Part shown: positions 5,931 to 26,804 of the stretch, piece after piece
Position numbering within the stretch: position 1 is the first letter of the stretch
Layout of the letters: each line of letters starts with the position of its first letter
Virus record (IMG/VR): IMGVR_UViG_3300033147_000359
Coordinates: 1 to 26,804 of that record
Reading direction: 5' to 3' (one strand)
Length of the DNA stretch: 26,804 nt
DNA from: a virus
Program-made: the position numbers and the translations under genes
The notes under the pieces: generated by a model
Databases searched by the model: none
What the model was told of the DNA's origin: nothing
What the model saw: only the letters and a program-made list of their open reading frames with translations

Positions 5931-6566
5931 ATGAAATTAAAAATCAACGAAGTATTTAATAGTATACAAGGAGAAGGAAGATATCAAGGACAACCGGTTA
6001 CATTTATAAGATTATCGGGTTGTACGAGGAAGTGTGATTTCTGTGATACAAAATACCATACTAAAATTAATAAGTGTATAAGTCCAAAAGTCTTTGCTAA
6101 AGGACTTAATATTCTAGGTAATATAATCGTATTCACAGGGGGGGAGCCGTTATTGCAACTGGAAGCTATACGTGAATTGAGGTATGAATTACCCAGTAAT
6201 ATAGGGTTTCATTTAGAAACAAATGGGGATTTAATGAAAAATTGGGGTTGGGTTGCTGAAAATGTAGACGGGTTATTTGATTATGTAGTTGTTAGTCCTA
6301 AGGATAAGGAAACAGCTGAAAAGGTATATAATATTTTAAAGAAAGAAGGTTGGGTATTTGATTGGGATATTAAGGTAGTAACAAATTTAGGATTGATTGG
6401 TGGAGATATGTTAAAATGTGCAACAATGTTGATGCCATTAACAAGGTATAACCGTAAAATGGATACTTTAATAAGACAAGGTGTTTGGGAATACTGTATA
6501 AAAAATAATTTATCTTATAGTGCACGGTTACATGTTGAAGTATTTGGTAACAAGAAAGGAATATAA
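5931..6566 (+). CDS. queE: 7-carboxy-7-deazaguanine synthase
   Basis: A radical-SAM enzyme that turns 6-carboxytetrahydropterin into 7-carboxy-7-deazaguanine, the third step to preQ0. The sequence shows the QueE hallmark NSIQGEG near the N terminus (residues 10-16), the cluster-binding triad C31-x3-C35-x2-C38 followed by DT, and the SAM-binding TGGEPLLQ segment at about 69-76. Length (211 aa) is normal for the short QueE type. The ATG has AGGAGAAG just upstream. It is separated from QueC and QueD by replication genes but on the same strand, and its stop overlaps the next ATG by one base. Family assignment is firm; use for DNA rather than tRNA is inferred from the DpdA-like gene at 13732. Confidence 0.93.
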   Translation: MKLKINEVFNSIQGEGRYQGQPVTFIRLSGCTRKCDFCDTKYHTKINKCISPKVFAKGLNILGNIIVFTGGEPLLQLEAIRELRYELPSNIGFHLETNGDLMKNWGWVAENVDGLFDYVVVSPKDKETAEKVYNILKKEGWVFDWDIKVVTNLGLIGGDMLKCATMLMPLTRYNRKMDTLIRQGVWEYCIKNNLSYSARLHVEVFGNKKGI

Positions 6567-6985
6567 TGAATAATGTTAATTTAAAAGAAATTTTAGGGGA
6601 AGCAAAACCAATATTTGACCAGGTAGATAATATAGGTAAAGAATTAAGAGAATTAAGTACCCTTAATATGGAATATTATCACAGTACGTTAGATAAATTA
6701 TCTGGCTGTTATACGTATTTAATGCCACTTTATTTAAAATTACACGCATTTAAAAAAAATAAGGAAGTAAGCAAATACATGTCTTTAAAGCTTGGGTTTG
6801 TGCCCAATGAAATCGAGAAAAAATTTGTAAGTACCGTAGCAGATAAAGAAGCATCTTATGAGGTAAGGGATTTAAGAATGGCTAGGAATATAATTGAAGG
6901 TTACATGAAAGCTACGGAAAATGCTATCAATACGTGTAAAAAACATATGGGTGGGAATGAAAAAGAAAGGCAGGTTACAATATAA
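6566..6985 (+). CDS. helical protein, possible UvsY-like recombination mediator
   Basis: A 139-residue, mostly helical protein. Two features recall T4 UvsY (137 aa): the size, and a C-terminal pattern of 'DKE...VRDLRMARNIIEGYMKATENAI' type, comparable with the UvsY 'DKD...VDTSLQYWGILLDFCSGALDAI' helix. A central Lys-rich stretch could bind ssDNA. UvsY loads the RecA-like UvsX onto SSB-coated DNA, and this window also encodes RecA, an SSB-like protein and an SbcCD pair, so a mediator would fit. It overlaps QueE by one base and the following sigma-like gene by one base (TAATG). The resemblance was judged by eye and is weak, so treat the call as a hypothesis. Confidence 0.35.
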   Translation: MNNVNLKEILGEAKPIFDQVDNIGKELRELSTLNMEYYHSTLDKLSGCYTYLMPLYLKLHAFKKNKEVSKYMSLKLGFVPNEIEKKFVSTVADKEASYEVRDLRMARNIIEGYMKATENAINTCKKHMGGNEKERQVTI

Positions 6986-7431
6986 TGGGAAGAAGAAAAA
7001 GTGAAGATAAGTTAACCCCTTTTGTTTTAGAATTTAAAGAGACAGAAAATGGTAAAGTACTTAATCAATTAATGAAAGCATCTGAAGGATTAATTTGGAC
7101 AGTAATGAAATATTACCACATGTATTATTTTCCAAAGTTAATTCAAGAAGAAGTAGTTGAGGATTGTAAAACCATTATACTATTACGTGCTATAGAAGGA
7201 TTTAACTTTAATAAGGGGAGATTTTCAACATACTATACTTGGAAATTAAAAAGTTTTATAAGGTATAGACAACATTTTCTTCTTAAGCGTAAAAAATTAG
7301 TGGAACATTCTTCATTAGATCAAGAAATTATTGGAAAAGAACATATGTCGTTAGATGACTTTATACATAATTTTGATTTAGTATTTAAACAAAAATGTAG
7401 TAAACAAATGCGAGAAATTTTTAGCATTTAG
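6985..7431 (+). CDS. sigma-factor region 2-like protein
   Basis: Residues about 28-86 match sigma-70 region 2: LIWTVMKYYHMYYFPKLIQE, then an LLRAIEGFNFNKGRFSTYYTW segment corresponding to the family's 'A(V/I)xxFDxxKGxxFSTYAxW', then a basic IRYRQHFLLKRKK stretch. These elements bind core RNA polymerase and the -10 region in the family. No region 4 helix-turn-helix is visible in the remaining 55 residues, so it resembles reduced phage sigma factors such as T4 gp55 in architecture. It probably redirects host polymerase to later phage promoters. It overlaps the upstream gene by one base and is followed 14 bases later by the primase-helicase. Confidence 0.7.
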   Translation: MGRRKSEDKLTPFVLEFKETENGKVLNQLMKASEGLIWTVMKYYHMYYFPKLIQEEVVEDCKTIILLRAIEGFNFNKGRFSTYYTWKLKSFIRYRQHFLLKRKKLVEHSSLDQEIIGKEHMSLDDFIHNFDLVFKQKCSKQMREIFSI

Positions 7432-7445
7432 TATATAATAAAAAT

Positions 7446-9677
7446 ATGAAGATAAAAAATGTCGGTAACATCATTGAAAAATTAAAACCTTTACTTGCAC
7501 AGTATCTCCAGGAACAGGGTTTAAAATTTAAAACTTCTTTATTTCAATGTCCTAATTATAAAGAGCATGATGGGGGAGGCGATGAAAAACCAAGTTGTGG
7601 TTTCTTACCTGATTCAAACCAAGAAAAGTACCACTGTTTTGCATGTGGGAAGGTAGGCACTATTTTTGATGCAGTTCATTTATTAGAAGGTAAGGACATC
7701 ACAGGTTTGCATTTTTATAGTATTGTAAAATATCTTGCAGAAAAATATAGCATAGAATATGAAATAGAAGAACCTACTGAGGAAGAAAAAGAATTTGATT
7801 TAGTACAATCTTTTTTAGGTACAATAGTTAATAGTGCACATACTTATTTAGTTAATAATAAACCAAAAGAAGTAACGAATTACATTAAACAAAGAAAATG
7901 GGAAGAATGTATTAATAGATTTCAATTTGGATATTTACTACGTAATGAAAAAACAGAACAATTCTTTATAAATGCATATTTAAAACACCCTGAATTAAAA
8001 AGATTAATAAATATTAATGCGGGACAAATAATGGGGAGATTAATTTACCCGGTTAAAAGTAAATACGGTACAATTATGGGTTTAGTACATAGGGCTATTT
8101 TAGAAAATGACCCTAGACATAAATATATAAAACACTTTATTAATTCCCTTAAAAAAGAAGGTATTGTTTTTAATTTAAGAGGTATCGATAAAAAAGTATA
8201 TATTGTAGAAGGAGGTAGTAGTGTTTTAACATTATGTCAAAACGGTATAGAAAATGCAATATCAATTTTAGGTACTGGTTTTAACGAAGCCAAATATACT
8301 AATTTAGTAAAGAATAATATAGAAGGAATGGTACTTTGTTTTGACGGAGATAAAGGCGGGGAAGAATGTTTAGAAAGAACTATAGGTATTGTACAACATA
8401 AACCAGATATTAAAATATACGTCAAAAAATTACCTAAGGGGGATGACCCAGATAGTTTTATCATTAAACAGGGTATTGAAAAATTTAAAGAATTACCCGA
8501 AATTAGTTTATTTAAATATCAAATTAATAAGTTAAAAATTGCAGATTCCCCTAAAATAAGAGAGTCTACATATGCGTTAATTTTAGCAACCAATGATGCT
8601 ATTTTAAGAGAACGTATGTTACACATGATGATTAAAGAGTTAAAAATTCAAAAAACAAGTTTATTATCTGAATTATCTAAATATGAACAATTACATTCCG
8701 TAACAACGGATATTAAGGTAACGGAAGTATTAGAAGAAAAAGAAAGTTTAAAAAAAGAATTAGAAAGATTTGAAGAAAGGGTTTGGCGAGCAGATAAAAT
8801 ATTAGGCGTATCCACAGGGTTTCCAATAATGGATGAAAAATTAGATGGATTACAGGATGGTTTACATGAAATAGGCGGCATATGGAATGTAGGTAAAAGT
8901 GCCTTTTTGTTAACCATGGCTTTAAACATGTTATCATCACCGGCTAACCATGTACTATATTTTAGTATAGATGACCCTATTCAGACAAAAACAATACCGA
9001 GAGCCATGGCCAATTTAAGTAAAATACCTATAAACGTAGCTGCTAATCCTTATTGGAAAATTCAAAAAAATGAAACTTTAAAGGATATTCAAAAAATGGA
9101 ATTATCTCAAAAGAGAGAAGAAGCTTATAAATTATTAGAGGAAATGTCAAGTAGATTTTCTTTAAAAGATTCTTCACATGGTTATCAATTAGATTTCGTA
9201 GAAAAAATGGTAAAAATAAGAAAGTTAATTGCAGGTAATAAGAAGTTAATTGTATTTATTGACTTTTTACATATGATAGGTGTCAAGGGTAATATGGAAA
9301 CAACTGAAGCATTAACAAAAATTTCAAGGCAATTAAAACATTTTTCAGGCATGTATAATATGCCAATAATCACTACGGTAGAAGGTACAAAAGAAATAGG
9401 GAATGTCCGTGAAATGAAGGGTAGTCACATTAAGGGGTCAGTATCTTTACAATTCGGAGCGGATACTATAATATTATTATCTTCAGATTTTTACAGTAAT
9501 CCAAAATCCAATATGTATTTTAGAGATGAAGAAGGTAATGCCAACCCAATTGTAAAAGTAAAAATTGATAAAAATAAAATAAGTGGTTTTAAAGGAAGTT
9601 TACATTATAAATTTTACCCGGAGTTATGTAGGTTTGAGGAATGTAATGAAGAAGACCAGGAAAGGTACAGCCAATGA
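7446..9677 (+). CDS. bifunctional DNA primase-helicase
   Basis: A single 743-residue protein joins a DnaG-type primase to a DnaB/gp4-type helicase, the T7 gp4 arrangement. It shows a CHC2-like zinc site (C35, H41, C64, C67), a TOPRIM core with E255 in VEG, D300/D302 in DGDKGG and a later GDDPDS, and a RecA-like motor with Walker A GIWNVGKS (G478-S485, K484) and Walker B VFIDFLH (D606). It would unwind the fork and lay primers for the polymerase at 14896. No clear Shine-Dalgarno precedes the ATG; TATAATAAAAAT fills the gap, so coupling to the sigma-like gene is likely. Unusually, the TOPRIM motif reads VEGGSS rather than the common VEGxxD. It overlaps the next gene by 4 bases. Confidence 0.9.
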   Translation: MKIKNVGNIIEKLKPLLAQYLQEQGLKFKTSLFQCPNYKEHDGGGDEKPSCGFLPDSNQEKYHCFACGKVGTIFDAVHLLEGKDITGLHFYSIVKYLAEKYSIEYEIEEPTEEEKEFDLVQSFLGTIVNSAHTYLVNNKPKEVTNYIKQRKWEECINRFQFGYLLRNEKTEQFFINAYLKHPELKRLININAGQIMGRLIYPVKSKYGTIMGLVHRAILENDPRHKYIKHFINSLKKEGIVFNLRGIDKKVYIVEGGSSVLTLCQNGIENAISILGTGFNEAKYTNLVKNNIEGMVLCFDGDKGGEECLERTIGIVQHKPDIKIYVKKLPKGDDPDSFIIKQGIEKFKELPEISLFKYQINKLKIADSPKIRESTYALILATNDAILRERMLHMMIKELKIQKTSLLSELSKYEQLHSVTTDIKVTEVLEEKESLKKELERFEERVWRADKILGVSTGFPIMDEKLDGLQDGLHEIGGIWNVGKSAFLLTMALNMLSSPANHVLYFSIDDPIQTKTIPRAMANLSKIPINVAANPYWKIQKNETLKDIQKMELSQKREEAYKLLEEMSSRFSLKDSSHGYQLDFVEKMVKIRKLIAGNKKLIVFIDFLHMIGVKGNMETTEALTKISRQLKHFSGMYNMPIITTVEGTKEIGNVREMKGSHIKGSVSLQFGADTIILLSSDFYSNPKSNMYFRDEEGNANPIVKVKIDKNKISGFKGSLHYKFYPELCRFEECNEEDQERYSQ

Positions 9678-10117
9678 AACAATATTTTTATGGTTTTGAA
9701 AAAACTAAAAAAGCAGTATATAATTTAAGTAGAAAGATAAAAAGAAGTAAGTTTAAGCCTAAAACATTAGTAGCTTTAGCAAGGGGTGGCTTATTAATAG
9801 GTTTATGGTTATCACATAAATTAAATGTACCCTTAATGATATTATCGGTAAAAAGTTACGATGATTTAGGAAATCAAGGTAGTACAGTATTAATGAATAC
9901 CAGTTATACGGTACCTTTACAATCACCTATATTAATAATAGATGAGGTATGCGATAAAGGACTTACTTTAAATGTAGTAAAAAATCATTTTGAATCTATA
10001 GGCGTAGGTGTAAAAACAGCTACTTTATTATATAAACCACATTCTATAATTAAACCGAATTGGAGTGTAGAACAAGTTAACAATGAAACATGGGTTACTT
10101 TCTTTTGGGAGAAATAA
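9674..10117 (+). CDS. phosphoribosyltransferase (PRTase superfamily)
   Basis: A 147-residue type I PRTase. Around residues 93-107 it has the PRPP-binding signature as ILIIDEVCDKGLTL, and an upstream LARGGLLIG loop at about 36-44. These enzymes join a base to PRPP, or run the reverse reaction. It resembles small xanthine/hypoxanthine PRTases, but the base cannot be read from the sequence. It overlaps the primase-helicase by 4 bases (ATGA) and the FolE2 gene by 1 base (TAATG). Its position beside a 7-deazaguanine pathway gene suggests salvage or handling of a purine or deazapurine base; that is inference. Length fits a minimal PRTase domain with no extra module. Confidence 0.75.
   Translation: MKQYFYGFEKTKKAVYNLSRKIKRSKFKPKTLVALARGGLLIGLWLSHKLNVPLMILSVKSYDDLGNQGSTVLMNTSYTVPLQSPILIIDEVCDKGLTLNVVKNHFESIGVGVKTATLLYKPHSIIKPNWSVEQVNNETWVTFFWEK
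10107..10112 (+). promoter_or_regulatory. ribosome binding site deciding the FolE2 start
   Basis: GGGAGA lies 4 bases before the ATG at 10117. The in-frame ATG at 10090 would add nine residues inside the upstream gene and has no such site, so 10117 is preferred. Confidence 0.65.
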
Positions 10118-10962
10118 TGAAAAAAATTAATTTACCAGATATTCAAAAAACAAGGGATAAAAGAGGTATATGTATTAATAGGGTAGGGGTAGAAGGAATT
10201 GATTTTCCATTATATATTTCTACTAAAAACGGTAAAAAGGTTCTAGTATATGCTAAAATTGATTTATTTAGTTCTTTAAAGCACGGAATTAAGGGTACCA
10301 ATATGAGTCGATTCCTCGAAACTTTAATGGTACATAAATACGTTACAATGGATAAGTATAAATTACGTGAATTTTTAAGGGCATTAAAAAAAAGATTGGG
10401 CGAAGTAAGTGATGTATATGTAAAAATTACCTTTAAATATTTTAAAAAGAAAACATCGCCCGTAAGTGGTAAAGAAAGTGTAATGGCTTATGAGTGTATA
10501 TTTGAAGGATTATTAAAGAAAAAGTATAGGTTTACGTTAACGGTAAAAGTATTAACTACATCTAATTGCCCATGTTCAAAAGAAATAAGTAAATATGGTG
10601 CACATGGTCAAAGAAGTATTTCTACGGTTATAATAGAACCAATTGCAAAAAAGAAAGTTTGGATAGAGGATTTAATTGAGTTAATAGAAAATCAAGGTAG
10701 TTGTGAAATATATCCACTATTAAAAAGGCCTGATGAAAAGTACGTAACAGAAAAGGCGTATAATAATCCAAAATTTGTTGAGGATATTGCAAGAGATATT
10801 TCAATAAACCTTCAAAAATTAAATACTATAAGGTGGTATAAAATAAAAGTAAGTAACGAAGAATCAATACATTCACATAATGCAGTTTGTTATATTGAAA
10901 GAGTTAAGAAAGGCGGTACGTGGAGAAAAAGTACATTTAGTTTAAGGAGTATTTCAAAATAA
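10117..10962 (+). CDS. folE2: GTP cyclohydrolase, FolE2 type (IB)
   Basis: Opens GTP to 7,8-dihydroneopterin triphosphate, the entry step to preQ0 and also to folate. From the chosen start (281 aa) the N terminus has LPDIQKTRDKRGICINRVGV, the FolE2 opening. The metal-site block has C151 and C153 in NCPCSKEISKYGAHGQRS, and further on are LKRPDEKYVTEKAY, NPKFVEDI and an ESIHSHNA segment, all signature FolE2 blocks. QueF is excluded because it lacks this CPCSKE...GAHxQR layout. FolE2 belongs to the tunnelling-fold family but is unrelated in sequence to FolE and can use metals other than Zn. No terminator follows; a new promoter starts 3 bases after the stop. Confidence 0.92.
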   Translation: MKKINLPDIQKTRDKRGICINRVGVEGIDFPLYISTKNGKKVLVYAKIDLFSSLKHGIKGTNMSRFLETLMVHKYVTMDKYKLREFLRALKKRLGEVSDVYVKITFKYFKKKTSPVSGKESVMAYECIFEGLLKKKYRFTLTVKVLTTSNCPCSKEISKYGAHGQRSISTVIIEPIAKKKVWIEDLIELIENQGSCEIYPLLKRPDEKYVTEKAYNNPKFVEDIARDISINLQKLNTIRWYKIKVSNEESIHSHNAVCYIERVKKGGTWRKSTFSLRSISK

Positions 10963-11691: not shown

Positions 11692-12561
11692 ATGAAGCCC
11701 AGAACTAAAGTCAACAATGCTTGGAAAGGAAAATTATATAAGTACTTTAATACCTTATCTAAGAAGGACTTATCCAAAGTAAAGCAAGCGGTATATTATA
11801 CATCAAAAGTAAATGATTGTGAAATATTTAATTCAGGAATAATGGGTGGTCAAAGATTAATTTATAAAGAGATAGTGGCCAATATTCCTTCAGATGTTAA
11901 AACAGTATATATACCGTTTGCTTGTGGGCTTGGTTTGACGTATTATTTATTACTCAAAGGTTATAAAGTAATAGCAATTGATAGAATGGAATGTGTAAAT
12001 AGGTTGGCAGACTTTTTATTTAAGAATAAAAATATTGATTTTGCAGTAAGTGTTTTAAAACAAACAAGACCAACTTTAAAAAATCCAAGAGAATATTTAA
12101 TAAGTATGCAAGAAAAGATACGAGGAAAATTATGCAACATTTGTTTTAAGAAAGGAGATGCATTTGAGTTATTACCAAAATTAATAAAATATTTCGGTAG
12201 AAAGAATGCATTGGTATATTTAGGAACACCTACTGTAATGGAAAATAACAAGAAATTTTATCAAAAATATATTAAATTAGAGTACTCATTAAATTCCTGT
12301 ATACGGGATGATTGGGATAAAGGTAATGAAAGTACTAAAATAAGGAAACTTCTTAGTATATGCAAGGAAGCAGACGGTTTTAAGTATGTTTTTGCAGGTT
12401 TAGGTACAGGTATTATGGGGTTAAGTGAAAAAATAAGTATATTTAAAGAATATTTCAAACATGTTAATTATATATATAAACCCTACGATGTTTTCGATGA
12501 CCATATTTTATTTGCTTCAACTAAAATCATAAAAATTAATAAAGGGCTACATTATGTCTAA
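11692..12561 (+). CDS. methyltransferase-like protein, D12-type but lacking DPPY
   Basis: A 289-residue protein whose layout follows Dam/D12-type adenine methyltransferases. It has an N-terminal GGQRLIYKEI segment, a SAM-binding loop VYIPFACGLG (residues 72-81) with a following acidic IAIDRM strand, and a later GDAFELLPKLIKYF...VYLGTPT segment. In active D12 enzymes the last strand ends in DPPY, but here the aligned residues are G178-T-P-T181. The catalytic Asp and Tyr are therefore missing, so N6-adenine methylation is doubtful. It may have a new substrate, bind DNA or SAM without catalysis, or be a degenerate copy. It overlaps QueC by 8 bases, which suggests a linked role. The assignment rests on visual motif alignment. 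Confidence 0.5.
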   Translation: MKPRTKVNNAWKGKLYKYFNTLSKKDLSKVKQAVYYTSKVNDCEIFNSGIMGGQRLIYKEIVANIPSDVKTVYIPFACGLGLTYYLLLKGYKVIAIDRMECVNRLADFLFKNKNIDFAVSVLKQTRPTLKNPREYLISMQEKIRGKLCNICFKKGDAFELLPKLIKYFGRKNALVYLGTPTVMENNKKFYQKYIKLEYSLNSCIRDDWDKGNESTKIRKLLSICKEADGFKYVFAGLGTGIMGLSEKISIFKEYFKHVNYIYKPYDVFDDHILFASTKIIKINKGLHYV

Positions 12562-13342
12562 AAATTTAGTTGCAATGTATAGTGGTGGAATAGATTCCAA
12601 TGTAACAGTGTTTTATCCATTAGAACAAGGATACGATGTATACCCCGTGTATATTTGTTGGCGTACCGGTAATGTTGCCGTAAAGGAATGTAAGATAATT
12701 ATGCAGTTATGGCATAAGTACAAAGATAAATATAATGGAAGATTTCATAAACCTTCAATAATTGTAAATAGTAATTTAATTAAGGATATAAAAGAAAATA
12801 TAAAATACAGAAATAAAATAATGCTAGATTTTGTAGCACGTAATATAATGTCAAAATATGGTACTAATTTATTAAGTATGGGTGAGTATAATCAGTCGAA
12901 GGAAGTAGGTTGGGTTAACAATTGGTCAGTAGCATTAGATGATTGTGAACCAAGTGCATTACAAGAATATTTAGACCAATACAATATTAAATTAATAATA
13001 ATGGATGACTTCGGAAAAGCTTCTTTAAAACATGACAGAGTTCAATTATTAAAAGATGTCATAGGGGAAGATGTATTTTTAACTACTTCGTGCGGATATG
13101 GCCATAATGGAATTGATTGCGGCGAGTGTTACCTATGTGGAGAAATTGCAGTAGCAAAAAGAAAAGTATTTGGATATGATAAAACGATATATTTAAAAGA
13201 CCCTGAAGTCCACAACATATATTATCCAGAATATTGTGTGCAAATGAATTATTTGCCAGGTTTATTAAGGGTATTAAAAAATAATTATAAAAATATAAGA
13301 ATACCTAGATTAGAATTAATTAAAAAATTAAAGGAGATGTAA
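12554..13342 (+). CDS. queC: 7-cyano-7-deazaguanine (preQ0) synthase
   Basis: Converts 7-carboxy-7-deazaguanine to preQ0 with ATP and ammonia. The ATP PP-loop SGGIDS is at residues 10-15, and the QueC zinc site C180-x8-C189-x2-C192-x2-C195 is complete. Between them the region is longer and more divergent than in bacterial QueC, with total length 262 aa against about 220-240, because of a C-terminal extension of about 50 residues. No glutamine amidotransferase fusion is visible. It overlaps the methyltransferase-like gene by 8 bases and the next gene by 1 base (TAATG). The family is clear; the extension is unexplained. Confidence 0.9.
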   Translation: MSKNLVAMYSGGIDSNVTVFYPLEQGYDVYPVYICWRTGNVAVKECKIIMQLWHKYKDKYNGRFHKPSIIVNSNLIKDIKENIKYRNKIMLDFVARNIMSKYGTNLLSMGEYNQSKEVGWVNNWSVALDDCEPSALQEYLDQYNIKLIIMDDFGKASLKHDRVQLLKDVIGEDVFLTTSCGYGHNGIDCGECYLCGEIAVAKRKVFGYDKTIYLKDPEVHNIYYPEYCVQMNYLPGLLRVLKNNYKNIRIPRLELIKKLKEM

Positions 13343-13731: not shown

Positions 13732-14481
13732 GTGTTTTTTGCATTTGAGTGTCCCATAGCATATTTAAAACAATTTCAACAAGTTAGTGACTTTGATTTT
13801 ATATTAGCACATTTACTTAAAGATAGGGATTACTACAATTTTTATAAAAAATCTAATAAGTTTAAAATATTAGATAACGGTGCATGTGAATTAGGTAAAT
13901 CAATTGATACTGATAATTTAATTAAATGGGCATATGATTTAGAAGTAGATATGTTAGTAGCACCGGATTGTTTATTAAATAAAAATGAAACTATAAAATT
14001 ATGGAAAAAATTTAAAAAAGATTATGTAGCGTTACCCTTTAAAATAATGGCAGTACCTCAAGGAAAAACAGTATTAGAATATGTAAAATGTTTAGAATAT
14101 TTTGAGAAAGAAAAAAGAGTAGATATAATAGGGTTAGGTTATAAACCCATATCAACTTCTTTTTATAGAAAATATAAGACACATAAAAAAGATGTAACTA
14201 CTACAAGGTTGAATTTAGTAAAAGAATATATCATTAAAAAGCCAACCCACTTATTAGGTTTAGGTTCCAGTGGTGGCTATGAAATTTTACATAATAATAT
14301 ATCTGCAACAACTGATAGTGCTTCACCCGTTATATTAGCTATTGAAAATAAAAGTATTCCAAGGAATGGTAGATATACTAGAACAATACCTCACTTAGAT
14401 TTTTATTATAAATTTAATAAGAAAGTCCTAAAATTAGCTATTCAAAATGCTTTAAAATTAAAGGGGTTTAGTAGTGAATAA
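13732..14481 (+). CDS. DpdA-like DNA-guanine transglycosylase (TGT fold), phage type
   Basis: DpdA enzymes exchange guanine in DNA for preQ0 or a relative, using the tRNA-guanine transglycosylase fold. The 249-residue protein shows FECPIAYL at the N terminus, an LDNGA motif with D48 (TGT-like DSGG position), VAPDCL with D79, a GLGSSGGYE loop at about 178-186, and TTDSAS with D195, the best candidate for the nucleophilic Asp. The CxCxxC...H zinc site of bacterial TGT is absent, as is an RNA-binding PUA domain, and the protein is much shorter than the 370-residue bacterial enzyme. The GTG start has GAGGTGAAAA just upstream. It overlaps the dUTPase by 8 bases. Assignment is by fold motifs and by the complete preQ0 pathway nearby. 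Confidence 0.82.
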   Translation: MFFAFECPIAYLKQFQQVSDFDFILAHLLKDRDYYNFYKKSNKFKILDNGACELGKSIDTDNLIKWAYDLEVDMLVAPDCLLNKNETIKLWKKFKKDYVALPFKIMAVPQGKTVLEYVKCLEYFEKEKRVDIIGLGYKPISTSFYRKYKTHKKDVTTTRLNLVKEYIIKKPTHLLGLGSSGGYEILHNNISATTDSASPVILAIENKSIPRNGRYTRTIPHLDFYYKFNKKVLKLAIQNALKLKGFSSE

Positions 14482-14895: not shown

Positions 14896-17343
14896 ATGGA
14901 TTTAAGATGCGATAAATGTAATTTATATAAAACATCAATAGCCGGGAATTTTTCAGCTGTAAAAATTGATGGTGCAGGAAATATCAATTCTAATATAATG
15001 TTAATAGGTGAAGCCCCTAGTTATAGTGAAATAAGGGAGAAAAAACCATTCGTAGGAGAACCGGGTAACTTATTAAGAAAGTACTTATTAACGGTTGGTA
15101 TAGATAATACTAATGCATTTTTTACATATGTTTGTAGATGTAAACCCCCACCCACAAAAAAACCTAGTAAAAAAGAGATTGAAAAATGTTTTCCATATTT
15201 GGATGCAGAAATTAAAAAAATGAAGCCACAAGTAATTGGTGCCCTGGGTGCATCTGTATGTTCTGTTTTAGAAATAGAAGGTAAAATTACAAGTATAAGA
15301 GGTAGTAAAATTTGGAATGAAAAATATAATTGTTGGGTAGTACCAGTATATAAACCATCTTATGTAACACGGTTTATTAATGATTCTAAACAAAGAAAAG
15401 AATTTGTAATGGATTTAGGATTATTAAAAAAATTAGAGGGTGAAGAGGATTATCAAGAAGAAAAAGTAATATATAAATTTGCAGACACTTTTTCTAAAAT
15501 TAAAAAAGCTACTGAATATTTAATAAACCAAAAACATATGGTAGTAGATATCGAAACAAATCACTTAAATTGTTTAAAATCTAAAATAGCATGTATAGGG
15601 TTTTCAGCACAACCTAAAACGGGTATAGTTATACCTTATCAATATTCAAAAATATTTAATGAAAAAGAGCAGTTAAAAGTAAAGGAATATTTAACAACCA
15701 TATTAACTTCAAAGGTGTTTAAGATATTACAAAATGGTAAGTTTGACGTTAAACATTTATTAGTAAAAGGTATACCAATACATCGATTTTTCTTCGATAC
15801 AATGTTAGCACATTATTTATTAGATGAAACGGGTTCCCATGGTTTAGGGGTATTATTACAAATATATACTTCAATGCCTAACCATAAAGATTTAATGGCA
15901 GAGTATTTACATTCTGAAAAGAAAACATACAATAGAATTTTTGAAGCACCGTTACCTACATTAATAGAATATACTGCAAAAGATGCTGACGGGGAGTTTA
16001 GGGTATTTTTAAAATTACAAAAATTAATAGCACAAGAAAAATTAGATAAGTTATTTTACCATATAATAATGCCATTAACATATGTTTTAGCACACATGGA
16101 AGTAAATGGAATTGAAGTGGATAAAAAATATGTAGATAAAACTGCTACTACTTTTAAATATAAATTAAAGGAAATCGAAAGGGATTTACAACATGATAAG
16201 TATATAAGGCAATATTTAAATTTACATACTAAAGAACCTGAATTTAATTTTAATTCTCCAAAACAATTAAGGGAATTATTATATGAAGTAATGAAAATTA
16301 AACCTGTAAAATATAATAAGCCTACTAAAACAAAACCAAAGGGTTCCCCTTCAACCGATAAAGAAACGTTAGAAATATTATCAAAAACTTCAAAATATTT
16401 AGTATTAGAGAACATGTTAAAATTTAGAAAAATTAAAAAATTACAGGACTATATAAAAAGTTATAAGGAATTAGCAGAAGAATCAGTTGACGGTAGAATA
16501 CATACTACATATATGCAAAGAGGTACTAGGACAGGTAGGTTAGCAAGTAGTGAACCTAATTTACAAAATATTCCTTCAGTGGAAAGAGATCCTATAAATG
16601 CTGCAATGGTAAGAAATTGTTTACGTGCAAAAGAAGGCTATACTTTAATTGAAGGAGATTATTCACAAATGGAGTTTAGAATATGGGCAGATAATTCAGG
16701 CGACGAAAAAATGATAAAATATATATGTAATCCTGATTTAGATATTCATATTCAAATTGCTTCTAAGGTATACAATATAAAGTACGGTTCAGTAACAGAA
16801 CATCAAAGGAGTATAGCTAAAGGGGTAGTATATGGTTTAATGTACGGTAGAGGGGCTTATTCTATTGCTAAACAATTTGGAGTAGATGTAAATGAAGCTG
16901 AAAGAATAACAACTACTTTTTTTAAGGAGTTTCCCACTGCTGCAAATTGGCTTAAACATAACGTTGATTTTGCAAAAAAACACGGTTATATTTGTAATAT
17001 GTTTGGTAGAAAAAGGAGATTAGAATATATACATAGTACAGACGGTGAAAAACAGGCTTTAGCAGAAAGACAAACTAGAAATAGTCCAATACAAAGTGGG
17101 GCAGCCGATATTGTATTTATTGCAATGATTAAATTATTTAAGGCAATAAAAGATACACCTATGAAAATGTTATTAAACGTACATGATAGTATTGGACTTG
17201 AGGTGCCAGATAACATGGTAAAAGAAGCATGTAATTTAATGAAAGAAATAATGGAAAATGCAGTACAATTAAAGGTACCCCTAAAAGTAGATTTTAAAAT
17301 AGGTAAACAATTTGGGGAAATGAATAAGGAAAAGAGTATATAA
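14896..17343 (+). CDS. polA: uracil-DNA glycosylase / family A DNA polymerase fusion
   Basis: An 815-residue protein. Residues 1-170 match family 4/5 uracil-DNA glycosylase: Fe-S cysteines C5, C8, C82 and C98, GEAPS at 38-42, and PFVGEPGNLL. The usual HPS motif reads K153-P-S, so activity is uncertain. Residues about 210-390 carry the 3'-5' exonuclease: DIE (D218, E220), QNGKFD, YTAKDAD. The polymerase has TGRLASSEPNLQNIP, motif A GDYSQMEFR (D588), motif B RSIAKGVVYGLMYG (R638, K642, Y646) and motif C VHDS (D764). Tyr646 takes the Phe762 place of E. coli Pol I, as in T7 polymerase. It is presumably the main replicative polymerase, working with the primase-helicase. No thioredoxin-binding insert is recognised. 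Confidence 0.9.
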   Translation: MDLRCDKCNLYKTSIAGNFSAVKIDGAGNINSNIMLIGEAPSYSEIREKKPFVGEPGNLLRKYLLTVGIDNTNAFFTYVCRCKPPPTKKPSKKEIEKCFPYLDAEIKKMKPQVIGALGASVCSVLEIEGKITSIRGSKIWNEKYNCWVVPVYKPSYVTRFINDSKQRKEFVMDLGLLKKLEGEEDYQEEKVIYKFADTFSKIKKATEYLINQKHMVVDIETNHLNCLKSKIACIGFSAQPKTGIVIPYQYSKIFNEKEQLKVKEYLTTILTSKVFKILQNGKFDVKHLLVKGIPIHRFFFDTMLAHYLLDETGSHGLGVLLQIYTSMPNHKDLMAEYLHSEKKTYNRIFEAPLPTLIEYTAKDADGEFRVFLKLQKLIAQEKLDKLFYHIIMPLTYVLAHMEVNGIEVDKKYVDKTATTFKYKLKEIERDLQHDKYIRQYLNLHTKEPEFNFNSPKQLRELLYEVMKIKPVKYNKPTKTKPKGSPSTDKETLEILSKTSKYLVLENMLKFRKIKKLQDYIKSYKELAEESVDGRIHTTYMQRGTRTGRLASSEPNLQNIPSVERDPINAAMVRNCLRAKEGYTLIEGDYSQMEFRIWADNSGDEKMIKYICNPDLDIHIQIASKVYNIKYGSVTEHQRSIAKGVVYGLMYGRGAYSIAKQFGVDVNEAERITTTFFKEFPTAANWLKHNVDFAKKHGYICNMFGRKRRLEYIHSTDGEKQALAERQTRNSPIQSGAADIVFIAMIKLFKAIKDTPMKMLLNVHDSIGLEVPDNMVKEACNLMKEIMENAVQLKVPLKVDFKIGKQFGEMNKEKSI

Positions 17344-24836: not shown

Positions 24837-25493
24837 ATGGAAATAAAATTAAATTCTGTAATTGAACATACATTATTAAACCCTAAAGCAAAATTGAAAG
24901 ATTTAAGAAAATTATGTAATGAAGCACAATTTGATAATTTTAGGGCAGTTGTAGTAAACCCTGAATGGGTGAATTATTGTAAACAACAATTAGAAGGTAC
25001 TTCTATTAAAGTTGTACAGGTATATAATTTTCCTACTTCCCAAAGTGAATTATTACAAGGCGATGAAGTAGATGTATACGTAAAATTAAATGGAATTAGT
25101 AGAAATAATTATACTAAAGAAATGGGTAAATTAATTATACATAGTACAGTAAAAGGTTTAGTAAAAGAAGGTGTGCACAAAAAAAATATTAAGATTGTTA
25201 TTGAAACAAGACTTTTATCTGATAAGGATGTACTTATAGCAAGTAAATTTTGTGCTAATGAAAAAGTAGGCTGCATTAAATCTTCTACCGGATTATATAA
25301 AAGAATTAATGGTAGAACTAATTTACAAGACTTAGAGTTAATTAAAAGGGGTATAAGATTTTGTACATATAAACCGAAAATTAAAATAGCAGGTGGTATA
25401 AGTACAATGAAAGATGTAAATGAATTAACTTGTAAGGGTGCAGATTTAATTGGTTCTTCTAAGGGACCAAATATATGTAAGGTTATGGATTAA
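24837..25493 (+). CDS. deoC: deoxyribose-phosphate aldolase
   Basis: Splits 2-deoxyribose-5-phosphate to acetaldehyde and glyceraldehyde-3-phosphate. Class I aldolase residues are all present: D79 in DEVDVY, Schiff-base K148 in CIKSSTG, and K183 in IKIAGGIST, matching D102, K167 and K201 of E. coli DeoC. Length is 218 aa against about 250-260, and the LNGI segment after DEVDVY replaces the usual family pattern, so it is divergent. AAAGGAGAG precedes the ATG. In a phage it may recycle host deoxynucleosides, or run in reverse or on a special substrate beside the deoxyribosyltransferase-like gene; the latter is inference. Confidence 0.87.
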   Translation: MEIKLNSVIEHTLLNPKAKLKDLRKLCNEAQFDNFRAVVVNPEWVNYCKQQLEGTSIKVVQVYNFPTSQSELLQGDEVDVYVKLNGISRNNYTKEMGKLIIHSTVKGLVKEGVHKKNIKIVIETRLLSDKDVLIASKFCANEKVGCIKSSTGLYKRINGRTNLQDLELIKRGIRFCTYKPKIKIAGGISTMKDVNELTCKGADLIGSSKGPNICKVMD

Positions 25494-25507
25494 AGGAGGG
25501 TTAAATT

Positions 25508-26080
25508 ATGTTACAGTCACTTGAAGCATATGCTAAATTAATTAAAGATTTTAAGATTATATATTTAGCAGGAGGTATTCAAGCTGCAAAAATGCCTAAT
25601 AGTTGGAGAAGTAGTTTATCAAATTTTATTAAATATAATAATAGAAATGCATTTAACCCTGTAGATGATAATGGTAATATATTTAATCAATCTATATTAG
25701 GTTATAGAGATGACGGTACTAAGATATTTTTAGAGGATTTACAAGATATGGATGAATTAAAAGAAGCTTTATTATTACGTCAAACGGAATTAAATGATAA
25801 GAAGGCAATAAAAGAAGCCGACGTAATATTCTTTTTCTTAGATGATAGGATTGGTCACGGCACAATGAAAGAATTTGATTGGGCTTATGATTGGAAAAAA
25901 CCAATAATTATAGTAAGAACTATTTCAAGAAAAAAATTAGCTCATTGGAATAAGTGGAGAAGATATTTTGGGTTAATAATAGAAAATAATATAGTAGAAT
26001 TTAGAAGTTTAACGGAAGCTAAAGAATTTTTTATAAAATATATGGGATTTAAGGGGGTAAATAATGATAAGGGTGAGTAA
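25508..26080 (+). CDS. nucleoside 2-deoxyribosyltransferase-like protein
   Basis: A 190-residue Rossmann-like protein. IIYLAGGIQ at the N terminus, then ADVIFFFLDD and GHGTMKEFDWAY (E122), matches the NDT family pattern: YLAGP-like loop, 'ADxxx...D' strand and 'GTxxE' catalytic helix. NDTs move 2-deoxyribose between bases. The middle differs from typical NDTs, with an Asp/Asn-rich insert at about residues 48-70, so the substrate may be unusual. It lies 14 bases after DeoC and overlaps QueD by 17 bases, an arrangement that suggests base or nucleoside exchange linked to modified purines. Specificity is not readable from sequence. Ribosome binding site: AAAGGAGGG. Confidence 0.65.
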   Translation: MLQSLEAYAKLIKDFKIIYLAGGIQAAKMPNSWRSSLSNFIKYNNRNAFNPVDDNGNIFNQSILGYRDDGTKIFLEDLQDMDELKEALLLRQTELNDKKAIKEADVIFFFLDDRIGHGTMKEFDWAYDWKKPIIIVRTISRKKLAHWNKWRRYFGLIIENNIVEFRSLTEAKEFFIKYMGFKGVNNDKGE

Positions 26081-26483
26081 GGAATTTACATTTGATTCTA
26101 GTCATCGGTTAAATAATAATTCTAAAAGTAAAAGGTGGAATAAAAAAATATTTGGTAAGTGTAATAATTTACCATCTCATGGACATTCTTATAAATTAGC
26201 AATAACAGTTGAAGGAGAACCTAACTCCGATACCGGTATGGTAATTAATTTTGTAGATTTAAAAGAAATAGTAAACGCAGTAATTATCGAAAAATATGAC
26301 CATAGATTTTTGAACGATGTAATCAATGGGATAACTACATGTGAAAATATGGCAAAAATAATTTATGATGCCTTATATATACCCCTATATAATTTTAATG
26401 GTATTGAATTATATTCAGTAATTTTATATGAAACGGCTACAAGTTGGGCAACCTATATTAGGAAGGAAAATAAACATGAATAG
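26064..26483 (+). CDS. queD: 6-carboxytetrahydropterin synthase
   Basis: Converts dihydroneopterin triphosphate to 6-carboxytetrahydropterin, the second step to preQ0. Zn ligands H14 (SSHRL), H39 and H41 (SHGHSY), catalytic Cys C33, the YDHRFLND Asp-His pair and the C-terminal YETATSW Glu are all visible in 139 aa. The CNNLPSHGH spacing (five residues between Cys and HGH) resembles 6-pyruvoyltetrahydropterin synthase more than E. coli QueD, so it is a PTPS-like QueD. With QueE and QueC in the same operon, the QueD role is most likely; a pterin role cannot be excluded. AAGGGGGTAAATA precedes the ATG. Confidence 0.9.
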   Translation: MIRVSKEFTFDSSHRLNNNSKSKRWNKKIFGKCNNLPSHGHSYKLAITVEGEPNSDTGMVINFVDLKEIVNAVIIEKYDHRFLNDVINGITTCENMAKIIYDALYIPLYNFNGIELYSVILYETATSWATYIRKENKHE

Positions 26484-26804
26484 ATTTACAAAAGAAGAGA
26501 CAAAAAAATTAATAGCAAGATTTTGTAATATTATGGATGATTTTAAAGGTCATAAAGATTTTCCAGAAGTATTACTTGATATGATGGAAGTGCATAATAA
26601 TAAGTCAAATGATTATGCTTCAGAAGAAAGTCCATTTTCAAATATTGAATTATGTGAGAGAGGTGGTTTCCCAGCATGGAAGGGATGTATTATTAGATTA
26701 GGTGACAAATATTCACGTTTATTAAATGCATTAAGTGGTAAATTATTTAAGTATGAAGGTATTGAAGATGCTTTTTTAGACAATGCTAATTATTCAGTAA
26801 TTGG
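26476..26804 (+). CDS. DUF1599/MazG-like protein, 3' partial
   Basis: The reading frame from ATG 26476 is open to the end of the window, giving 109 visible codons. It overlaps QueD by 8 bases with AAGGAAAA upstream. Residues about 40-58 read EVHNNKSNDYASEESPFSNI and later RLGDKYSRLLNAL. This is the pattern of a helical MazG-like/DUF1599 family often found with nucleotide-modifying phage enzymes, in which Glu and Asp residues would bind Mg. Hydrolysis of a dNTP is a possible role. I am moderately sure of the family and do not know the substrate. Confidence 0.5.
   Translation, partial: MNRFTKEETKKLIARFCNIMDDFKGHKDFPEVLLDMMEVHNNKSNDYASEESPFSNIELCERGGFPAWKGCIIRLGDKYSRLLNALSGKLFKYEGIEDAFLDNANYSVI

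Follow-up and report, generated by a model that had tools for sequence, protein, structure and literature searches.

The window analysed here is the whole of IMG/VR record IMGVR_UViG_3300033147_000359, a viral DNA of 26,804 bases whose right end falls inside an operon containing deoC and queD. ORF calling together with family scans confirmed four plus-strand open reading frames lying head to tail at this end, preceded by a metallophosphatase ORF:

24837..25493, + strand: DeoC-like deoxyribose-5-phosphate aldolase (218 aa; D79, K148 and K183 match the DERA catalytic residues)
25508..26080, + strand: NDT-superfamily protein (190 aa; Tyr19, Asp97, Glu122; Gly116; Pro51; AlphaFold2 model with pLDDT 80)
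26064..26483, + strand: member of the QueD / 6-pyruvoyl-tetrahydropterin synthase family (139 aa; Cys33-x5-His-Gly-His)
26476..26804, + strand: 5' part of a DUF1599 (nucleotide modification associated domain 1) protein, the gene being cut by the contig end

Gaps of 53 bases ahead of DeoC and of 14 bases between DeoC and the NDT-like gene are followed by overlaps of 17 bases (NDT-like/QueD) and 8 bases (QueD/DUF1599), and a ribosome-binding-site-like stretch stands before each of the four ORFs. The first-pass annotation, which had described these genes as adjacent with the last three overlapping, is thereby confirmed.

The assignment of DeoC is based on its match to deoxyribose-phosphate aldolases in the PDB (E 5e-21) and on the presence of the catalytic Asp and both Lys residues. 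Its score against TIGR00126 (105.6 bits) lies slightly below the equivalog cut-off of 117.3, and about 12 residues are missing between the 'NFP' and the 'DEVD' strands, two core strands, so that the function of the protein could be altered. Matches to deoC were obtained in 15 of 50,697 phage records, several of which are short, unannotated records and were left out; in the one deoC-bearing huge phage that was inspected, no NDT-like gene lies beside deoC. QueD scores 116 bits against the PTPS family (PF01242) and possesses the active-site Cys and the HGH zinc motif (C33...HGH). It reaches 86.9 bits against TIGR03367 (cut-off 89.25), and its Cys-HGH spacing of five residues is that of mammalian PTPS. 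Among solved structures it is likewise closest to mammalian 6-pyruvoyl-tetrahydropterin synthase, whereas other phage QueD proteins (L002-L004) display a Cys-x3-HGH arrangement. Of the DUF1599 protein, 109 aa remain from the ATG at 26476, and this fragment itself matches no Pfam family. Two phages of the Kyanoviridae, Methylophilales phage Melnitz and Pelagibacter phage HTVC008M, encode proteins 43-45% identical to it that exceed the PF07659 cut-off, and through these the DUF1599 half of the earlier label 'DUF1599/MazG-like' is probable. For the MazG half no link was seen: comparison of DUF1599 with MazG by hhalign, using shallow alignments, returned a probability of 0.2, no MazG (PF03819) match occurs anywhere in the record, and profile similarity thus gave no support to a MazG or all-alpha NTP pyrophosphohydrolase. 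'MazG-like' is consequently an inferred name for this protein.

The NDT-like protein belongs to PF05014 (32.7 bits, above the cut-off of 28.8) and shares only some 20% identity with its relatives. None of these was recovered when viral and genome contigs were scanned with one or two sequences, and initially a single weak phage relative was found. Stepwise alignment-guided scans yielded two relatives with a three-sequence alignment and 29 loci with a second alignment, from which 24 usable relatives, all from viral contigs, were obtained; plasmids contained no NDT-like relative. AlphaFold2 modelled the protein at pLDDT 43 without an alignment and at pLDDT 80 (pTM 0.76) with 25 sequences. In Foldseek searches against the PDB this model matched nucleoside transferases (8pqt), CMP N-glycosidases (MilB, BcmB) and DNPH1 at similar E-values and with TM scores of about 0.5, and therefore the fold alone does not decide the substrate class. 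Among viral models the closest in fold is gp53 of Gordonia phage Archimedes, 145 residues long (E 1.8e-6); this DmtZ homologue is 37% identical to the DmtZ of Ghobes and occupies the same place in the gene order, ahead of a dUTPase-like gene. When the profile of the NDT-like family was compared with single sequences, DmtZ proteins gave 2e-9 to 5e-5, DNPH1 0.004 and LlNDT 0.01; the window protein together with its archaeal-virus relative reached 6e-6 against the DmtZ profile. HMMER produced the same ranking, with weak scores for the two-sequence profile. The nearest characterised relative is thus judged, by profiles and by the modelled fold, to be DmtZ of Z-genome phages.

The phage family of NDT-like proteins (L024-L051) is broad and shares the motif LPxxVPTxGTxxEI, whose core is common to DmtZ. 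The viral records in which its members sit reach 530 kb and lack QueD. A linkage of the family to PurZ was considered and dropped, since an adenylosuccinate synthetase is present in only 1 of 28 records. Among viral structures the NDT-like model also matches A0A6J5LQ71 and A0A6J5S4N9, phage proteins named dATP/dGTP diphosphohydrolase N-terminal domain, which are possibly fusions of an NDT-like protein with a pyrophosphohydrolase.

The residues of the active site bear on the substrate as well. The catalytic triad (Y19, D97, E122) is invariant or nearly so across the NDT-like family. The position six residues ahead of the catalytic Glu is occupied by Asp in each of the four nucleoside transferases in the comparison (LlNDT, LhPDT, BpNDT and CtNDT). 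DNPH1 and BcmB carry Ser there, DmtZ carries Thr, and 4hx9, an engineered deoxyribose-5-phosphate transferase, carries Gly. The window protein has Gly116 at this position, and all 24 relatives have Thr. Hence the Asp that marks an NDT (EC 2.4.2.6) and serves the free 5'-OH is absent, and the combination characteristic of DmtZ, the triad with a non-acidic 5' phosphate pocket, is present. Pro51, a transferase-type residue corresponding to Pro57 in Ghobes DmtZ, is kept in 24 of 24 relatives. By contrast, the position of Asp12, which is Asp in all five DmtZ proteins and essential for activity on dAMP (PMC12884076), is taken by Gln25, and a base other than adenine would therefore be preferred, if any. 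The pocket residues including Gly116 lead us to predict 5'-monophosphate substrates. Exchange at the level of nucleosides, the substrates originally suggested for an assay of this protein, was set aside because the 5'-OH-binding Asp is replaced, and a nucleotide-level role, on dNMPs rather than nucleosides, is plausible from these residues.

The window encodes further enzymes of 7-deazaguanine metabolism upstream of the operon:

5931..6566, + strand: QueE-like radical SAM protein (phrog_2076)
9674..10117, + strand: XGPRT-like purine phosphoribosyltransferase, beside FolE2
10090..10962, + strand: FolE2 GTP cyclohydrolase (PF02649)
12554..13342, + strand: QueC-like PP-loop ATPase (PF06508 at 22.8 bits, cut-off 22; PF02568 also matched)
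13732..14481, + strand: TGT/DpdA-like guanine transglycosylase, kin to proteins of Campylobacter CP220, Cellulophaga phiST and Flavobacterium immuto

QueD, FolE2, QueE and the QueC-like protein make up a complete preQ0 route, to which the exchanger is added. The latter, 249 residues long, matches only three phage groups (Flavobacterium immuto, Campylobacter CP220-like and Cellulophaga phiST-like); the immuto match (E 7e-16) is annotated as DNA guanine transglycosylase (DpdA), and TGT-type residues (LDN, PD, QG, HLLG and a late Asp) are kept across a six-member alignment. The CP220/phiST group presumably corresponds to DpdA3, which later work has reportedly tied to complete replacement of guanine. 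Because a TGT/DpdA-like enzyme is encoded in the same fragment, base exchange at the DNA level is the expected route of insertion and, as far as its sequence indicates, should suffice to place the modified base.

Other genes of the fragment encode primase-helicase, dUTPase, RecA-like, RuvC-like and exonuclease proteins, and 14896-17343 encodes a fusion of a uracil-DNA-glycosylase domain with a DNA polymerase of family A. The fusion has full-length matches in L006-L009, which also possess FolE2 and a DpdA-like protein; a search for close relatives of the phage by way of its polymerase found none. Between FolE2 and the QueC-like gene lies a Class I methyltransferase-like protein (11692-12561; weak PF02086) without the usual DPPY-type motif, which could act on the modified base. 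In Brevundimonas phage StAshley (L021), a protein annotated as hypothetical (6668-7468) matches the DpdA-like profile (E 2e-13) and is likely the unannotated exchanger of that phage.

PF05014 and deoC are absent from all 12 other QueD- or DpdA-bearing records (G001-G007, CP220, immuto, phiST, BUCT-ZZ01 and StAshley; some are fragments, five are complete phages), and conversely QueD and deoC are missing from every one of the 28 viral records with a member of the NDT-like family. Neither the NDT-like protein nor DeoC therefore accompanies the 7-deazaguanine route regularly, and chance may have brought the operon together. Absence from relatives that keep QueD had been named beforehand as refuting a nucleotide-level route to the modified genome, and it is what these records display. 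The NDT-like protein and DeoC could help the guanine swap, but related phages perform it without them.

As the best explanation we tentatively propose a small set of genes for deoxynucleotide turnover, co-transcribed with QueD in a phage with 7-deazaguanine DNA. QueD, FolE2, QueE and the QueC-like protein would make a preQ0-type base, which the DpdA-like enzyme would swap for guanine in finished DNA; both activities are established for the families and carried over to the proteins of the window. The NDT-like protein would act on deoxynucleoside 5'-monophosphates, as its residues, fold and kinship to DmtZ suggest, and release the free base and deoxyribose-5-phosphate by way of a covalent Glu122-deoxyribose-5-phosphate intermediate. 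DeoC, to judge from its catalytic residues and its pairing with the NDT-like gene, would then split deoxyribose-5-phosphate into glyceraldehyde-3-phosphate and acetaldehyde, pulling the preceding step forward. Sugar phosphate is not among the products of a nucleoside transferase, whereas a dNMP glycosidase yields deoxyribose-5-phosphate. Since this substrate of DeoC would be produced only if the NDT-like protein used nucleotides, the pairing fits a dNMP glycosidase. At the weakest step, which draws on the name of its family and the company it keeps, the DUF1599 protein may convert dNTPs into the dNMPs required; the phage phosphoribosyltransferase could turn freed guanine back into GMP, from which FolE2 would be fed. 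The gene overlaps and the shared strand count for such turnover. Against it we count the low identity of the NDT-like protein to its relatives, the modest fold match, the possibly altered DeoC and the absence of both genes from the other QueD- or DpdA-bearing records. We infer dNMP hydrolysis, its coupling to DeoC, any role of DUF1599 and any help to the base swap from residues, models and gene company.

Alternatively, the genes could belong to routine salvage or breakdown of the host's deoxynucleotides, have nothing to do with the modified base and merely share an operon with QueD. The 28 viral records in which the NDT-like family occurs without QueD or deoC agree with this, as does the presence of a dUTPase and nucleases in the phage. 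Nevertheless, the NDT-like and DeoC genes run in the direction of QueD, with an overlap, and deoC is rare in phages and unusually placed next to an NDT-like gene and QueD, so that we regard plain salvage as unlikely, if the most serious competitor.

The first-pass annotation had proposed, as a speculation, that the NDT-like protein might provide a nucleotide-level route to the modified genome. In the present form of this idea, a dNMP such as dGMP would donate its deoxyribose-5-phosphate to a 7-deazaguanine base, kinases would convert the product to a dNTP for the polymerase, and the DUF1599 protein would lower the normal dNTP. This proposal finds support in part: it gains from DmtZ, the nearest characterised relative, which performs such chemistry with the Z base (PMC12884076), and from the nucleotide-type pocket. 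Pro51, common to transferases and missing in human DNPH1, points the same way through its conservation in every relative. Furthermore, Hutinet et al. 2019 left open both a route through modified dGTP and the existence of undetected 2'-deoxyribosyltransferases in 7-deazaguanine phages (PMC6884629). The DpdA-like exchanger in the same fragment speaks against it, as do the lack of the NDT-like protein in all 12 QueD/DpdA relatives checked and the failure to see a kinase in the fragment; moreover, DeoC would drain sugar phosphate leaking from the intermediate. Nucleotide-level attachment of 7-deazaguanine is accordingly possible and not favoured: we consider it improbable, and prefer on sequence and modelling grounds a turnover of dNMPs to base and deoxyribose-5-phosphate, followed by DeoC. 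More doubtful still would be two routes of insertion in one phage, that is, exchange in DNA by the DpdA-like enzyme and a DmtZ-like dNMP route to 7-deazaguanine, with DeoC and DUF1599 shaping the pool.

Finally, for each base it makes QueD gives off one acetaldehyde, and the DeoC reaction is reversible, so that DeoC, adjacent to QueD, might detoxify this product by joining it with glyceraldehyde-3-phosphate to deoxyribose-5-phosphate (a load of ~2-5 mM acetaldehyde per cell, by arithmetic that assumes full guanine replacement and genomes of 50-150 kb), but all other QueD phages checked lack deoC and acetaldehyde diffuses out of cells, which makes this the least credible of the readings.

Turnover of dNMPs, our preferred reading, would still represent a phage that pairs a nucleotide glycosidase with DeoC. 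If instead the NDT-like protein charges 7-deazaguanine, the principle of DmtZ would extend beyond the Z base to another modified base. The distinction bears on how phages reach high or complete guanine replacement and on the charging of 7-deazaguanine onto a nucleotide before replication (PMC6884629).

A firmer lead than any role of the NDT-like protein is provided by the phosphoribosyltransferase at 9674, which matches 13 of 50,697 phage records. Twelve of these are real phages from four lineages; the thirteenth, MT835497 (L022), is filed as a phage and was rejected as an actinobacterial contig that encodes a phosphoketolase and a betaine-type transporter. All four phages inspected, one per lineage (BUCT-ZZ01, StAshley, immuto and phiST), contain preQ0 genes, often adjoining the phosphoribosyltransferase, with gene orders such as QueE-PRT-x-QueD-FolE in BUCT-ZZ01 and FolE-PRT in StAshley. 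By this sampling, phage relatives of the enzyme appear only in 7-deazaguanine phages. The simplest reading suggests recycling, in which guanine expelled by the exchange is led through GMP and GTP to FolE. Our literature search found no paper joining phosphoribosyltransferase, DpdA and phage, and the link can be tested now in cultured phages.

Among known systems, the clusters of Flavobacterium immuto, Cellulophaga phiST and Brevundimonas StAshley resemble the window in their QueD/QueE/FolE genes, phosphoribosyltransferase and DpdA-like protein, yet they possess neither an NDT-like protein nor DeoC. In immuto and phiST the exchanger has as neighbours a gene annotated as NTP pyrophosphohydrolase and another that is nucleotide-kinase-like, the nearest analogue in functional terms. 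Nucleoside 2'-deoxyribosyltransferases such as LlNDT and CtNDT share PF05014, the triad and the Pro with the NDT-like protein and differ in the 5'-OH-binding Asp that Gly116 replaces. The nucleotide N-glycosidases DNPH1/Rcl, MilB, BcmB and BlsM agree in fold, in the Tyr/Asp/Glu triad and in the lack of Asp at the 5'-OH position; human DNPH1, however, has His where the window protein has Pro51, and it is weaker than DmtZ against the family profile. DmtZ itself acts in Z-genome phages, where it hydrolyses dAMP and moves deoxyribose-5-phosphate onto the modified base, so that an NDT-family enzyme attaches this base to deoxyribose at the nucleotide level, alongside a dNTP pyrophosphohydrolase (PMC12884076). 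The window differs from that system in its 7-deazaguanine pathway with exchange in DNA, in the neighbours DeoC and QueD and in Gln25 instead of Asp12, and no PurZ was found in the fragment. Even so, DmtZ with DutZ/DUF5664 in PurZ0 Z-genome phages (Poubanne et al. 2026, PMC12884076) is the nearest system by profile and fold: in both cases a phage protein of the NDT superfamily with a non-acidic 5' pocket and the transferase Pro adjoins other nucleotide genes, in a phage that has a base-replacement pathway.
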